Positions 17,385 to 28,847 of a DNA stretch of 28,847 nt are shown here, piece by piece. The position numbers and the translations under genes are program-made. Each line of letters starts with the position of its first letter. Position 1 is the first letter of the stretch. Source of the DNA: a virus; the IMG/VR virus record IMGVR_UViG_3300009494_000016, positions 1-28,847 of that record. One strand, written 5' to 3'. Under the pieces are notes generated by a model. The model saw only the letters and a list, made by a program, of their open reading frames with translations, was not told where the DNA came from and searched no databases.

Positions 17385-20300
17385 TTAGAACTTACTCCTC
17401 TTGGTCGGTCTTAACGCCTTACGCAATGATTTTAGATCTGCCCGCACCGTCTGGCTGGCCGGTACGATACCTCCGCGGTTAGCTCCGAACAACCGGAGTT
17501 GTTTCTTCGGAACCTCTTTCCCTTGGTTATTGTCCTTACCGTCCTTACCAGGACTACCCGATCGGGTGAACTGCACCATCCGGCTGCTGTTGGCGAACTC
17601 TGTCTCGTTCAGCATGAACACCAGCAGCGTTAGGTTCCACGCCGTCAGGGTGTGGTCGTATCCCTGACTGTACACGGGGCGGCCGTCGGGAGAGACTCTT
17701 TCTTTTCGGTACGACCGCACCTGGTGAACCAGCCCCTTGCCCTTCTTACTATCCTCGGACGCCGGGAACTTCTGCAGCCCACGTTCCATTATCTGCACCG
17801 ACCACTCCACCATGAGGGGCTTGATGTGCTTCTTCAGATCCGCACCCGTAATGGCATCCTTGACGATCACCTTGGAACTCATGTTGTACGCGAACATCTT
17901 TTCTTTCAGGCCCGTCTGGGGGTACTTGGCCCCGATGATCTTCAGCAGCTCCTCATTGGTCGAGCCATACCCGGCGTCGAGCCCTATATAGGTCGGCATC
18001 CACAGCTGGTTAAGCTCAACGATACGATCGATCGACTTCAGCTGGGTGTACTCGCCGCCCTTGACGATATCCTTTGCGACGATCTTGAACGCCTCGGTCT
18101 CGGGATCGTATTCGTTTATCACGATGTGCGTTCCATGTATGTGGTCGTTCCAGTCGACCCCCATCAGGTACATTCGATCCTTATTGGGTACGCACGTATG
18201 CAACTCATACGTACCGATAGCAGCATCGACGTACTTTTTCTGGAACACCCCCTCGGCCTCCTCGCCAAACATGGCGAGCATTTCCCGTTGGTAACCACCG
18301 AAGGTGTACATCTTACGAAACCTTGTATCGGTCTCTTCGGTGTAGCGGGGGGACTCGTGGGAGACTCTCCAGAACTCTTTGAACCCAAGGTCTTTTATCG
18401 TGCACACTTCGTGGAAGGTTTCGCGTTTACCCGTAGGGGTGGTGGAGAAGTTTATTGAGCACGCTGGGTGCGAGGCCTGTATGGCTATGATGGCCTCTAA
18501 GTCATCCTTCGTCAGCAAGTCACTCTCGTCCAAGATAATACAGTTATGGGACATCATGCCTGCTGCCATGTATCTGTTTTGTGCCCCAGACTGTAGGTTA
18601 TAGACATCCGCAGTACCAACGGACCTACGTATTGATTTTTGAATTGGAAGTATTACGTAATGATCTTTCCAGTAAAAGAACTCTACCAACTCACTTACAG
18701 TCTTTCTCTCCGTAGAGAAGAGGGGATGGAAACGCCGCCTGTTCCACTTGACCATGTCTACAGATATACCAGTTCTTTTTGATATCTGGGATTGTATTCC
18801 TGTCTCGCCAAGAACTATACGATTGTCTTTCCAGGTCTTCAGATTGTATATACGTTCGTACCACCTGTATAGCCGCCAGCAGTTAGCCTGTATGGTCTTG
18901 TTAACGCTGTAACAAAAGCCTACAGCCTCAACGTACCTATCAATATTCTCTCTGGAGTTGGTAACACGGAGGGTACCTATCCAACGGTCCTCGTCCCCTT
19001 CCTTGAAGTACTTTGTCTCTGGTCTCGATGTTTTTATGTCAAGATCGTTAAGGAGCTTCTCTACATCATCAAACCAAGTATCAATCCACTCCTCTTTAGT
19101 AGACCGCATATTCATTTCGATTACCCGGACTGTCTTGTCGTTTGCTGCATAGGCAACCCCTGTAGCTTCTGCACTAAACAAGCCAGATAGAAATGCAGCT
19201 TTTATGTAATTGAAATTTCCTTTTACCCAATCTGGAACCCTAAGAGGTTGATATACCTTCTTCCCCCTGGGCGCAATCCCGATAAGGAAGTGGGTGGCGT
19301 GTGTGGAGCAGAACTCAGACACCCACCCACGAATACCCTTCTCTTCATTAGCTTTATATGTTGTGGTAATTTTATGTTTCTGATCACCGAGAATACAAAG
19401 GTCCTCTGTGATCTGTTCCAGATCCTCTTTCTGCCCGGCAAAACCAGATATTGGGGTACGTCTCCTCTTAGCGCTCTTAGTACCCTCTCCGTCTATAAAC
19501 CCATCTCCATAGGAGTACCCTGCTAGACGGGCGCGAATCACAGCCCGACCGAATGTGAGGTCTCGATTGGCAAGAGATACAACTACCTCCTCTGCGTCTT
19601 TAGCAGGGACATCCTTCTTACCATTAAAGAATGGATGCTCTGGCGTACAGTGGGCACAGGTCAGTGGTGTGGATAGGGATAGCACGGGCTGCTCTGGTCT
19701 TTTTACCAGGGCCTCTATCTCTCCAATATGAAAGCCAGCACGTCCACCACCGAACACAGTGTGATCCAGAGTAAGTGTTTCTATTGGTCTTGTAGCAAAC
19801 TCGCTGACGTTGACCGCTGTACCCGCAACAAAACAATCTGCATCTTCGCCACGAATCTTCTCTGACTTATTGCCGCTCTTCACACCACTGGTGAATCCTT
19901 TTATTATGCTTTTATTAGTAAATGAAACTGACTGTGGATTTTTAATGTCTGCCAATACAGACTCTCTAACTGAATCATTTCTATCGATCATGTTCCTAAG
20001 CACACCAAAAAGGCGGTCTACTTGTGCTTCATACGGTGTAATAACCAATATTGTATATGCCTCGTACGCCTTCTTTCCAGGCCGTGTGAGTGCCTTGTGT
20101 AACATGTCCACACAGAGAGCATCGGACTTTCCCGATCTGCGGCCCCAGCGGCACACTTTAGCCAGCGCTGAACATTGCAAAAATTGTGCCTGATACCACT
20201 CGGCGTACCAGTTCAGTGTGAGCCCGGCCCACATAACCGGATCCAGCGTAGCCCGGGTGTACATCGCTTCGTCTTTGGTCATCCCCCTCTTTTCTAGGTC

Positions 20301-20492
20301 CTGTAGCTGATCAAGGACGCTTCCCTCACATAGGGGCTTAAAATTCCCCCACCGCTTCTTATACTGCGCCCTACATAGCTCGCAGAAGTTCTTAGAGCGC
20401 CTTCCCAACAACCCCTCTTCGTACTCTTCGTAGTCTGCGCCCAAGAGATCTTCGAGTATATCTAGCGAGATTGGACTAAATTCAATTACCAT
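17385..20492 (-). CDS. terL: Terminase large subunit, precursor containing an intein
   Basis: TerL is the ATP-driven motor that packages DNA through the portal and cuts the concatemer. The precursor has 1035 residues; removing the intein (residues 220-650) leaves 604, a usual TerL length. Walker A is CRWGRRSGKS (114-123). Walker B is CIILDE (651-656), reconstituted as ADCIILDESD after splicing. The coupling motif is STTPTG (684-689). The nuclease domain shows two Asp motifs, LMGVDWND (Asp780) and YIGLDAGYGS (Asp839), of the RNase H-like fold. The N-terminus has C-x-x-C and a later Cys (residues 37-55), a possible metal site. The ATG overlaps the upstream TAA stop (TAATG). The AT-rich intein stands out against the extein DNA. 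Confidence 0.94.
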   Translation of the reverse strand: MVIEFSPISLDILEDLLGADYEEYEEGLLGRRSKNFCELCRAQYKKRWGNFKPLCEGSVLDQLQDLEKRGMTKDEAMYTRATLDPVMWAGLTLNWYAEWYQAQFLQCSALAKVCRWGRRSGKSDALCVDMLHKALTRPGKKAYEAYTILVITPYEAQVDRLFGVLRNMIDRNDSVRESVLADIKNPQSVSFTNKSIIKGFTSGVKSGNKSEKIRGEDADCFVAGTAVNVSEFATRPIETLTLDHTVFGGGRAGFHIGEIEALVKRPEQPVLSLSTPLTCAHCTPEHPFFNGKKDVPAKDAEEVVVSLANRDLTFGRAVIRARLAGYSYGDGFIDGEGTKSAKRRRTPISGFAGQKEDLEQITEDLCILGDQKHKITTTYKANEEKGIRGWVSEFCSTHATHFLIGIAPRGKKVYQPLRVPDWVKGNFNYIKAAFLSGLFSAEATGVAYAANDKTVRVIEMNMRSTKEEWIDTWFDDVEKLLNDLDIKTSRPETKYFKEGDEDRWIGTLRVTNSRENIDRYVEAVGFCYSVNKTIQANCWRLYRWYERIYNLKTWKDNRIVLGETGIQSQISKRTGISVDMVKWNRRRFHPLFSTERKTVSELVEFFYWKDHYVILPIQKSIRRSVGTADVYNLQSGAQNRYMAAGMMSHNCIILDESDLLTKDDLEAIIAIQASHPACSINFSTTPTGKRETFHEVCTIKDLGFKEFWRVSHESPRYTEETDTRFRKMYTFGGYQREMLAMFGEEAEGVFQKKYVDAAIGTYELHTCVPNKDRMYLMGVDWNDHIHGTHIVINEYDPETEAFKIVAKDIVKGGEYTQLKSIDRIVELNQLWMPTYIGLDAGYGSTNEELLKIIGAKYPQTGLKEKMFAYNMSSKVIVKDAITGADLKKHIKPLMVEWSVQIMERGLQKFPASEDSKKGKGLVHQVRSYRKERVSPDGRPVYSQGYDHTLTAWNLTLLVFMLNETEFANSSRMVQFTRSGSPGKDGKDNNQGKEVPKKQLRLFGANRGGIVPASQTVRADLKSLRKALRPTKRSKF
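18543..19835 (-). mobile_element. LAGLIDADG intein in the terminase large subunit
   Basis: The 431-residue intein begins at Cys220 (CFVAGTAVNVSEF, block A) and ends HN before Cys651 (block G); block B is TPEHPFF and block F is VYNLQSGAQN. Cys1, His-Asn at the end and Cys+1 are all present, so splicing should work. Two LAGLIDADG helices, RLAGYSYGDGFIDGEG (322-337) and FLSGLFSAEATG (about 434-446), give a homing endonuclease of the dodecapeptide class. An HTH-like stretch SQISKRTGISVDMVKWNRRR lies at about 567-588. The insertion site is the conserved Walker B strand, where an intein is hard to lose by imprecise deletion. The DNA is visibly AT-richer than the flanks, suggesting acquisition by transfer. 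Confidence 0.95.
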
Positions 20493-26819: not shown

Positions 26820-27036
26820 GATGAAAAAGCTCCACTGCCTTTGTTAGAAACGAACAACCTCGATCGTATTTATGGTCGAAGAACTCCAACATCCTATACA
26901 GGTCGAGATTCCAATGCTGAATCAGCTCCATTGAGGGCTTACTTAGGACGGTGTGTACGTCATATCCAACCTCCCCTGGGGCGGTATTGGATGGCTGGTT
27001 TGTGCCACTCTGTAAGGACATATAGTACGCATCCAA
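26728..27036 (-). CDS. Small protein of unknown function overlapping the candidate small terminase
   Basis: The 102-residue protein starts at a TTG directly after the TAA of the previous gene, with GGAA about 9 bases upstream; an ATG five codons later is an alternative. The protein is acidic and aromatic-rich (MELIQHWNLDLYRMLEFFDH, FHHELRSDREFRDHYES), with no known motif. Its last 92 bases overlap the next gene in another frame, which is unusually long for this window and lowers confidence. Confidence 0.45.
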   Translation of the reverse strand: MDAYYMSLQSGTNQPSNTAPGEVGYDVHTVLSKPSMELIQHWNLDLYRMLEFFDHKYDRGCSFLTKAVELFHHELRSDREFRDHYESTIGTPRAPHGVRRAV

Positions 27037-27393
27037 TTAGGGTTGTTCCAGCAGCAGCATCCGCATGTGGTTCGTAATGATGTCTGATTCTAACTGATCC
27101 GCCCCCTCGAGGTCCTTCAGCAGCTCCCGCATCAGCTGTGCCGGGCCCGGCACGGCCACGCCCTCACCGACCCGCTTCTCTATCTCGGCCCGCACGAGCA
27201 GGAAGATCGTCTCGGCACAATCGGCGGGATCCTCCATATCATCGTCACACACAGAGTCGGCGAGTGCGTCGGCGACTATTCGTGCGTAGGCCTTCCAGTC
27301 ACGCATTGGACGCTTCTTAAACTTCTTTACAGATCGGCAGGAACCACCCGTCCTGCAGTGCCCCATAGGAGCATCACTAATGGGCGGCTTCAT
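27037..27393 (-). CDS. Small protein of unknown function carrying repeat copy A in its 5' part
   Basis: The 118-residue protein starts MKPPISDAPMGHCRTGG at ATG 27393, which overlaps the preceding TGA (ATGA). A second in-frame ATG (RPMRDWKAYARI, about 27306) just after repeat copy A is a credible alternative start. The C-terminal part is an acidic helical domain, DALADSVCDDDMEDPADCAE and AQLMRELLKDLEGADQLESD. No known motif is seen. Confidence 0.55.
   Translation of the reverse strand: MKPPISDAPMGHCRTGGSCRSVKKFKKRPMRDWKAYARIVADALADSVCDDDMEDPADCAETIFLLVRAEIEKRVGEGVAVPGPAQLMRELLKDLEGADQLESDIITNHMRMLLLEQP
27308..27366 (-). repeat. Short repeat, copy A
   Basis: On the minus strand it shows stem GCAGGA, loop with GGACGG overlap and GGTGGT, stem TCCTGC, then CGATCTGTAAAGAAGTTTA and AGCGTCC. 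Bases from TGCCGATCTG to GCGTCCAA match copy B with two differences. It lies within the 5' part of the 118-residue gene. Confidence 0.65.
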
Positions 27394-27680
27394 CGTTGCT
27401 CCAGTGGTCGTCTCAGCCTTCCCGTCCAGTACCCGCGGGGCGGCTTGTCTATCTCGTAGGCCCTGCACCAATTTGCGATCGTGACGTCGGTGACGCCGAA
27501 CATCTCGGCCAGTTTCTTCGACGGGTGGTCCCACACGAGCAGTTCTAGCTCTTCCCGTGTTGGTCGCTCGGCGATCCGCTGATCCTTCTTCGCACACTCC
27601 TGGCTACAGTACTTGGTCCGGGTAGGACGGTAGCATCCCTCTCGGTTACAGGTAAAGTACTCAGGTTCCTTTGGACGCAT
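27390..27680 (-). CDS. Zinc-finger/HTH DNA-binding protein
   Basis: The 96-residue protein has an N-terminal Cys4 site (TCNREGC and KYCSQECAKK, about residues 9-30), probably one zinc. An HTH follows in the well-known phage pattern REELELLVWDHPSKKLAEMF, GVTDVTIANWCRAYEIDKPP, RGYW. That pattern is common in HNH endonucleases and small DNA-binding proteins of phages; no nuclease motif is present here, so it is a regulator or nuclease remnant. ATG 27680 is inside repeat copy B, with AAGGAAG 6 bases upstream. The stop overlaps the next ATG (ATGA). Its place at the head of a small-gene operon suits an early regulator. Confidence 0.8.
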   Translation of the reverse strand: MRPKEPEYFTCNREGCYRPTRTKYCSQECAKKDQRIAERPTREELELLVWDHPSKKLAEMFGVTDVTIANWCRAYEIDKPPRGYWTGRLRRPLEQR

Positions 27681-27729
27681 CTTAAACTTCCTTACAGATC
27701 GGCACAGACCATCCGTCCAATCCTGCCCA
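27673..27729 (-). repeat. Short repeat, copy B (leader of the zinc/HTH gene)
   Basis: It shows GGACGGATGGTC, then CTGTGCCGATCTGTAAGGAA, then GTTTAAGATGCGTCC. The ATG of the zinc/HTH gene lies 7 bases before the end of the repeat, so the SD and start codon are part of it. The GGACG in the loop can pair with the CGTCC after the start codon. Confidence 0.65.
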
Positions 27730-27799
27730 GTTTGAACAGTTTGAAGAAGCGGTGATTAGATGGCTGGTTGCGCGTTCGGTTGATAGGTTTCCTCCTCAT
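27692..27799 (-). CDS. Possible 35-residue basic peptide
   Basis: An ATG overlaps the upstream TGA (ATGA) and opens a short frame starting MRRKPINRTRNQPSNHR, ending GRMVCADL inside repeat B. The composition is basic. An AGGAGG lies inside, not before, the frame, so initiation would depend on coupling. The region 27681-27795 is otherwise non-coding apart from repeat B. Confidence 0.25.
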   Translation of the reverse strand: MRRKPINRTRNQPSNHRFFKLFKLGRIGRMVCADL

Positions 27800-28113
27800 C
27801 CAACCAGCAGGTCTGGATCGTCATTAACGATGATCATCGACGGCCCCAGCCGGGCTAGGTCGACAATCGTATCGGACATCATCACATCGTCCTTAGTTGC
27901 CTCGTAGGCCGCTTCTGTTACAAACACCACATCAACGGTCAGTCGGTGCGCGCGGATCATAAGGTTATGGGGGCACATACAGATGAATACATCCGTGGTG
28001 GTCTCGACGTAGTCGGGGTAGTAGTTGACGACCGCGCCCTTGCTCTCTTCGATGATGTTGCGCGTTACCGTCAACGCCTCCTCTGGTGTCTGCGCGACCA
28101 CGGCGATTATCAT
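27796..28113 (-). CDS. Small protein of unknown function, alpha/beta
   Basis: The 105-residue protein starts MIIAVVAQTPEEALTV and has alternating hydrophobic strands and helices (DVFICMCPHNLM, LTVDVVFVTEAAYE, GPSMIIVNDDPDLLVG), suggesting a small Rossmann-like or similar alpha/beta fold. It lacks a P-loop. A strong SD, AAGGAG, lies 6 bases before ATG 28113. The start overlaps the stop of the 24-residue peptide (ATGA). The function is unknown. Confidence 0.7.
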   Translation of the reverse strand: MIIAVVAQTPEEALTVTRNIIEESKGAVVNYYPDYVETTTDVFICMCPHNLMIRAHRLTVDVVFVTEAAYEATKDDVMMSDTIVDLARLGPSMIIVNDDPDLLVG

Positions 28114-28184
28114 TGGACGCTCCTTACGTATCCCTGCCTAATGGCGCACGACCATCCGTCCTCGGCGCCCACCAAACGAAGCAA
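28110..28184 (-). CDS. Likely 24-residue peptide gene within repeat copy C
   Basis: TTG at 28184 follows directly after the upstream TGA, with AAGGAGG ending 8 bases before it. The frame encodes LRLVGAEDGWSCAIRQGYVR then SVQ and ends in TGA, overlapping the next gene's ATG by four bases (ATGA). The coupling at both ends and the strong SD argue it is translated. The DGW-x-x-A/P core recurs in the other repeat copies. Confidence 0.5.
   Translation of the reverse strand: MLRLVGAEDGWSCAIRQGYVRSVQ
28115..28171 (-). repeat. Short repeat, copy C
   Basis: It shows GGCGC...GCGCC as stem with GGACGGATGGTC inside, then ATTAGGCAGGG, then AAGGAGCGTCC just before the next ATG. The stem bases differ from copies A and B but still pair. 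It shares ATTAGGCAG with copy D. Confidence 0.6.
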
Positions 28185-28382
28185 TCATAACTCCTCCTTG
28201 AGTTGGGTGAAGAACCTTATGAGGTCGTTACAATCCGTCCTCGTCAGCGGAAGGTCGCGCAGGGAGCAGACCGAGTAGATGTGGGCGGCAGGCCCCGAGG
28301 GCGGCGTCAGGTGGAGGTCGAGGTGGATCTGCTCGGCGTCTACCCGTAACGCAACCCACTTTGTCAGTACGGATAACTTCAC
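28185..28382 (-). CDS. Small protein of unknown function
   Basis: The 65-residue protein starts at GTG 28382, overlapping the previous TGA (GTGA), which I prefer to the longer frame that would overlap the upstream gene by 91 nt. It has a strand-rich start (KLSVLTKWVALRVDAEQIHL) and a helical end (TDCNDLIRFFTQLKEEL). It is a plausible small alpha/beta domain. No family is recognised. Confidence 0.6.
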   Translation of the reverse strand: MKLSVLTKWVALRVDAEQIHLDLHLTPPSGPAAHIYSVCSLRDLPLTRTDCNDLIRFFTQLKEEL

Positions 28383-28567
28383 CTGTACCACCGAATTACA
28401 ACAGTAAAGACGCCCATCGACAGCGTGAACACCACGACGATCGTCGTCAGCCACACGAAACAGAACCACTCGGGGTCGACCTGTCGGGCCACTACGTACG
28501 AGCCAACCATGACCAGTGCGAGATAGGCATAGCCGAGTAGGGCGATAAATGGAGAATCATCATCCAT
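28379..28567 (-). CDS. Small membrane protein with two predicted helices
   Basis: The 62-residue protein starts MDDDSPFIALL. It has two hydrophobic helices, FIALLGYAYLALVMVGSYVV (about 7-26) and WFCFVWLTTIVVVFTLSMGV (about 34-53), ending in basic VVIRWYR, so probably both ends lie in the cytoplasm or lumen depending on charge. The ATG starts about 6 bases after the predicted -10, so its mRNA would be leaderless or nearly so. An early membrane peptide of this kind may act in host takeover or lysis control; this is speculation. Confidence 0.6.
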   Translation of the reverse strand: MDDDSPFIALLGYAYLALVMVGSYVVARQVDPEWFCFVWLTTIVVVFTLSMGVFTVVIRWYR

Positions 28568-28571
28568 ACGT

Positions 28572-28601
28572 CTAGTATAGCATACTAGGGAGGTGTGTCA
28601 A
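28572..28601 (-). promoter_or_regulatory. Strong sigma70-like promoter with palindromic operator over the -10
   Basis: On the minus strand TTGACA and TATACT are separated by 16 bases. The 17-base sequence CTAGTATGCTATACTAG (28572-28588) is a perfect 7-3-7 inverted repeat that covers the -10. It would suit repression by a dimeric regulator. It is the only strong promoter at the head of the small-gene run. Confidence 0.8.
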
Positions 28602-28789
28602 CAGTGGGTTTGTTTGGACGCTTCGTAGGCTTCTCTGCCTAATGGCAGGAACCATCTGCTCGCTCTGAGCGAGTCGTCCTGGGTGCCCCATAGGGGAGGG
28701 GTGGGGGATTCGTATGTTTGTTTCCTAGGTAAAGTCGAAAATCTCATATAAAAATTTTTACAGATGCCGAAGCTCATCGGGTACCCCAA
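28598..28789 (-). CDS. Possible small protein ending in the repeat-encoded peptide
   Basis: The frame of up to 63 codons starts at TTG 28789 or an internal ATG (MSFGICKNF or MRFSTLPRK). It ends with LWGTQDD...SRWFLPLGREAYEASKQTHC. The tail shares the W-F-L-P and Y-x-x-S-x-Q pattern with the peptide in repeat C. No good SD is visible. The stop lies at the -35 of the next promoter. Confidence 0.35.
   Translation of the reverse strand: MGYPMSFGICKNFYMRFSTLPRKQTYESPTPPLWGTQDDSLRASRWFLPLGREAYEASKQTHC
28616..28690 (-). repeat. Short repeat, copy D
   Basis: It shows CAGGACGA, an inserted 7-base hairpin (CTCGCTC with GAGCGAG), then ATGGTTCCTG, giving stem CAGGA/TCCTG. It continues with CCATTAGGCAG as in copy C, then AGCGTCCAAAC. 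It ends 15 bases before the -35 of the strong promoter, so it lies at the 3' end of the upstream frame. Confidence 0.6.
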
Positions 28790-28847
28790 GGAGCCAGTAT
28801 TGGATGGATGTCTCTTGGCGATCTGTGGGGTAGTGGGGTCGGCATCC

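Follow-up and report, generated by a model that had tools for sequence, protein, structure and literature searches.

Does a short repeat lying between small genes near one end of an uncultured phage fragment represent an RNA element that controls their translation? The fragment, IMG/VR record IMGVR_UViG_3300009494_000016, is a 28.8-kb piece of a large tailed phage, and the window referred to below is the whole of that stretch (28,847 nucleotides); the minus strand carries nearly all of its likely genes. Judged by its terminase, portal and tail sheath proteins, it belongs distantly with large tailed phages, among them Moorella phage MTATph1 (portal 28% identical), Bacillus phage KLEB27-3 and Acinetobacter phage ME3. 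No near DNA relative of the window was found in the phage collection, the closest viral contig found (L176) having a portal that is 39% identical.

Phage terminases match the terminase large subunit (1035 aa; 17385-20492, minus strand) only in two separated pieces, and residues 431-525 give a LAGLIDADG-like match just under the curated cutoff; this segment is probably an intein. Two group I introns (Rfam RF00028; 1401-1614 and 2898-3106, minus strand) flank a LAGLIDADG endonuclease gene at 1822-2736.

Six Copies of One Element

A sequence-only reading of this DNA had described a four-copy repeat, and all four copies, A to D, could be located on the minus strand. They belong to an element of about 60 bases with six copies in the window, the other two, E and F, being on the plus strand; identity among the copies is 42-78%. 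GGACG, TGGT and the octamer GCGTCCAA are present in each of copies A-D, and the octamer occurs four times on the minus strand and not at all on the plus strand. From the start of GGACG to that of CGTCC it is 41-42 nt in A-C; in D, where a loop carries an inserted 6-bp hairpin, CTCGCT-CAG-AGCGAG, the distance is 59 nt.

Copy E (26977-27036) was first detected as an inverted repeat pair and scores 73 bits with a covariance model; as the model was trained on A-E, the scores of these five are not independent evidence. Copy F (28791-28847), which stops at the contig end, was left out of the model and is weak in the covariance model search of the window. When its matches to A, B and E are summed, however, F reaches 104; the best non-copy position in the window scores 81 and the top one of 20 shuffles 88. 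With the filters of cmsearch turned off, the window yielded no copy beyond the six.

Two Interleaved Helices Kept by Compensatory Changes

Read on its own strand, the element consists of GGCA (the 5' strand of helix P1), a loop 1 of 4-5 nt, GGAYG (the 5' strand of P2), a loop 2 of about 9-10 nt, UGCC (the 3' strand of P1) and, after 23 nt in all six copies, CRUCC (the 3' strand of P2). Loop 2 contains TGGT, replaced by TGTC in F, and in D it accommodates the hairpin insert, a kind of insertion that is typical for structured RNA. AA directly follows CRUCC wherever the sequence extends that far, and P2 can be extended by two U-A pairs in B and E, amounting in B to 7 bp with flanking UU/AA.

On the minus strand, copy A (27306-27365) has P1 at 27359-27362/27336-27339 and P2 at 27349-27353/27308-27312, and copy B (27671-27730) has them at 27724-27727/27701-27704 and 27714-27718/27673-27677, respectively. 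Copy C (28113-28172) forms P1 as GGCG(C)/(G)CGCC at 28166-28169/28143-28146 and P2 at 28157-28161/28115-28119; in copy D (28614-28689) P2 is at 28675-28679/28616-28620. On the plus strand, E has GGATG/CATCC as P2 and GGCG/UGCC, including one G-U pair, as P1, and F has GCCA/UGGC as P1 and GGATG/CATCC as P2. P1 and P2 interleave in a crossing, pseudoknot-type arrangement.

The two pairings foreseen in the sequence-only reading, that of GGACG with CGTCC and that of a stem with variable but pairing bases (P1), are both found in every copy: all 54 cells of the six-row, nine-pair alignment are paired, and both-sided changes occur at three of the nine pairs. Pair 2 of P1 turns from G-C to C-G in F, pair 4 of P1 from A-U to G-C in C (and to G-U in E), and pair 4 of P2 from C-G to U-A in E and F. 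A lack of further copies and of compensatory changes had been named as what would speak against the element; within the window there are two additional copies and three compensated pairs. Only 2 of 500 shuffles match the six-row alignment in paired percentage and covariation score, pairing falls to 23-44% in slid registers, and whole-column shuffles give a helix of at least 5 bp in all rows plus a second of at least 4 bp in 0.05% of trials. Besides the helices, the unpaired bases TGGT and T..G.A..GA are conserved.

For alignments A4 and A5 one base was dropped from C, the hairpin was removed from D and an N was placed in loop 1 for register. The pairing of P1 and P2 was confirmed on the unedited sequences of A, B, C, E and F, which have a common layout, and by eye for D, which differs only by its loop hairpin. 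The maintenance of both crossing helices through compensatory changes, in a small sample from one genome, supports classing the repeat as a putative pseudoknot RNA element. The covariation itself, a few events among six copies of a single genome, supports pairing within the strand, and would by itself look the same for RNA and for single-stranded DNA.

In the 23-nt spacer, UAAA/UUUA in A and UAGGC/GCCUA in D might form a third conserved hairpin, but this was rejected because the register differs among copies. At 28749-28790 on the minus strand, CATCTGTAAAAATTTTTA is similar to the spacer of A and B (GATCTGTAAAGAAGTTTA) but has no P2 partner. An extra upstream CTCC..TATGGGGCAC is common to copies A and D (27358-27369 and 28683-28694) and partly to E; it may form a short hairpin in competition with P1.

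Folding Energies and an Alternative Hairpin

As for the pseudoknot proposed from the sequence, the crossing helices and their compensatory changes speak for it, but P1 and P2 are absent from the nested folds of most copies: minimum-energy folds favour neither helix, the exception being P2 in D and E, and the shuffle z-scores of folding are ordinary in all copies but D. Before loop costs, stacking of P1 and P2 is worth -18 to -23 kcal/mol, compared with -15 to -30 kcal/mol for the nested folds, which gives the crossing helices no clear advantage.

RNAalifold, which is unable to represent crossing helices, prefers P2 plus a small nested hairpin, UGGU/GCCR, that uses the 3' strand of P1 and fits all six copies as well. 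This choice would suit a bistable RNA in which the same GCC can pair either in P1 (GGCA/UGCC) or in UGGU/GCCR and the balance between the two sets expression. In the shared strand copy F has G in place of C, and this change is matched by G to C in the P1 partner and by G to U in the UGGU/GCCR partner; with both partners changed, this single case is compatible with two competing helices. However, the evidence for two helices comes from copy F alone, and the UGGU/GCCR hairpin, with G-U among its pairs, is a weak one, so we hold this explanation to be very improbable.

Gene Context of the Copies

Copies C, B and A occupy gaps of 71, 115 and 83 nt ahead of three successive small genes on the minus strand, in an operon-like gene run in which most other gaps are shorter than 20 nt. 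The gene after C (27796-28113, 105 aa) begins at ATG 28113 with the start site AAGGAG-CGTCCAATG, the gene after B (27390-27680, 96 aa) at ATG 27680, inside the copy, with ATGCGTCC, and the ORF after A (27037-27306, 89 aa) at ATG 27306 with CGTCCAATG. In A and C, CGTCCA comes before the ATG or shares its last A with it; in B the ATG stands before CGTCC. The 3' half of P2 had been placed at the Shine-Dalgarno sequence or start codon in B and C, and it does lie within the ribosome-binding footprint there, as it does in A. The broader claim, that the repeat sits at gene starts, is true for these three of the six copies; it fails for D, which precedes a promoter, and for E, inverted just behind a stop codon, F, at the contig end, being outside the comparison. 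A translational operator with its 3' half over the Shine-Dalgarno sequence or start codon in every copy is not what the window holds, D and E departing from that pattern.

At the CGTCC of copy D there is no start codon; about 12 bp separate the end of the copy from a downstream sigma70-like promoter, TTGACA-16-TATACT (28574-28601, minus strand, 11/12 consensus matches), so that the copy is outside the transcript made from that promoter, the gene start at 28567 lying beyond it. Such intergenic placement, including the position of D upstream of a promoter and the head-to-head arrangement of D and F, together with the conserved unpaired TGGT and T..G.A..GA, would agree with an RNA acting on the transcript between operon genes, as an antitermination, processing or mRNA-stabilising site, and not on start codons. 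We regard this as unlikely: three copies end precisely on start codons, no terminator-like sites were found at the copies, and E would act on a transcript without genes.

Copy E runs in the opposite direction to the genes and follows immediately on the stop codon of the 27037-27306 ORF, so that E and A, as inverted copies, flank exactly this one ORF. This arrangement is one of the points for the main rival to translational control, which takes the repeat to be a DNA-level or mobile boundary repeat: a small element bearing palindromes, either REP- or MITE-like or marking a gene-module boundary, that would have spread in a single region of the genome and whose arms pair for mobility or recombination and not for translation. 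The copies are in both orientations and only in gaps between small genes, and the cluster includes an HNH-type fragment: the 96-aa product of 27390-27680 aligns with phage HNH endonucleases in their C-terminal, DNA-binding part only, at about 45% identity, and is without the HNH domain of its Vibrio phage relative. (For the 105-aa product no relatives were found.) Against this origin, flanking target duplications were not seen by eye, the pairing is kept despite 42-78% identity, interleaved palindromes would be odd for a dyad protein site, and A-C adjoin start codons. We consider it somewhat unlikely.

Open reading frames also run through the copies. In B and C their ATG overlaps the previous stop, and they span P1 and GGACG and stop 14-18 nt before CGTCC; that in B has 35 codons, and that in C reads MIASFGGRRGRMVVRH, preceded by AAGGAGGAG. 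At copy A an ATG at 27393 again overlaps the previous stop and its frame runs on into the downstream ORF, and copy A may lie inside this longer ORF, a point against translational control by this copy. These overlaps, the open frame through A and the residues CRSV(K/R)KFK common to A and B in one frame might suggest that the repeats are alike because they encode conserved or leader peptides. The frames differ, however, C being shifted by one base, the shared frame in B lacking a start codon and D and E containing stops; the extension at A (from 27393) has a codon score near background, and the pairs covary. Coding similarity is accordingly an explanation to which we give hardly any credence.

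Search for Relatives

At gathering thresholds Rfam has no match to the element, its only hits being the two group I introns elsewhere in the window, and sub-threshold matches up to E 10 include nothing plausible for it. A loose DNA pattern returned matches in IMG/VR that on inspection were all due to chance, and stricter patterns gave none or chance matches in IMG/VR and in the 84,980 genomes of GTDB. Searches by blastn with the region and with copy B against phage records produced nothing useful, and no relative carrying these genes was found. The covariance model search that had been suggested at the outset gave no convincing match among related phages, where model R1, run on the whole records of 48 portal relatives (including MTATph1 and KLEB27-3), reached a best E of 0.36 with unconvincing 20-nt fragments. 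The element so far appears private to this contig, the searched collections being ones that may omit records very near to the genome of the window.

A Candidate RNA Control Element

Given that three copies are exactly on gene starts and that the pairing is kept, the repeat resembles a new RNA control element, and we tentatively favour, at somewhat less than an even chance, its being a cis-acting RNA by which a large tailed phage controls the translation of small genes. In the mRNA, GGAYG would pair with CRUCC across P1 to give a pseudoknot, and in A-C the pairing of P2 would hold the start region in structure. The structure might be opened by a phage or host RNA-binding protein, or by a ribosome coming from the upstream gene; since the overlapping ORFs in B and C pass through P1 and GGACG and end before CGTCC, an arriving ribosome would strip P2, and coupled translation is a possible way of opening the element. 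Copies E and F would be additional sites on the opposite strand, and F may lead a divergent operon past the contig end. A more elaborate form, a new phage RNA family in which competition of P1 and UGGU/GCCR for one strand makes a bistable translational switch, recurring across many small genes of a single large phage, seems to us quite improbable. If control of translation is correct, a single phage would set the expression of many small genes through a shared structured RNA site, in effect an RNA-level regulon.

Comparison with Known Systems

preQ1-II, SAM-II and the T4 gene 32 leader are pseudoknot operators or riboswitches that mask the ribosome-binding site. The element shares with them pseudoknot-type pairing at the ribosome-binding region in A-C, with a loop hairpin tolerated in D; it differs in being without an Rfam match and in having several copies on unrelated small genes. 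A T-box, in which UGGU would meet the ACCA of tRNA, was rejected by eye, there being no room for stem I and F having UGUC. REP and MITE repeats and integron attC sites are short, repeated, paired elements found between genes in both orientations. The repeat is likewise short, paired, intergenic and in both orientations, but by eye it has no terminal duplications or recombinase core motif, and its helices are interleaved; membership of attC was dismissed by eye, the paired core sites being absent.

In placement the nearest published analogue is the pair SAS/ESAS (Start-Associated Sequences and extended SAS) of the Cluster K mycobacteriophages, described in 2011 with function unknown (PMC3203893). 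SAS is a 13-bp sequence, GGGATAGGAGCCC, located 3-7 bp before start codons, to which ESAS adds inverted repeats of 17 bp separated by 4-13 bp; they are confined to non-structural genes, about half have imperfect inverted repeats upstream, and occasional copies are reversed (PMC3203893). Both systems are multi-copy phage repeats near starts (A-C here) with some copies reversed. By sequence the element is no member of SAS/ESAS, the consensus of the six copies being without the 13-bp GGGATAGGAGCCC, and it differs further in its length of about 60 nt, its two interleaved helices, its fixed 23-nt spacing, the reversal of two of six copies and its occurrence on one contig. Its compensatory base changes offer concrete mutants for testing.
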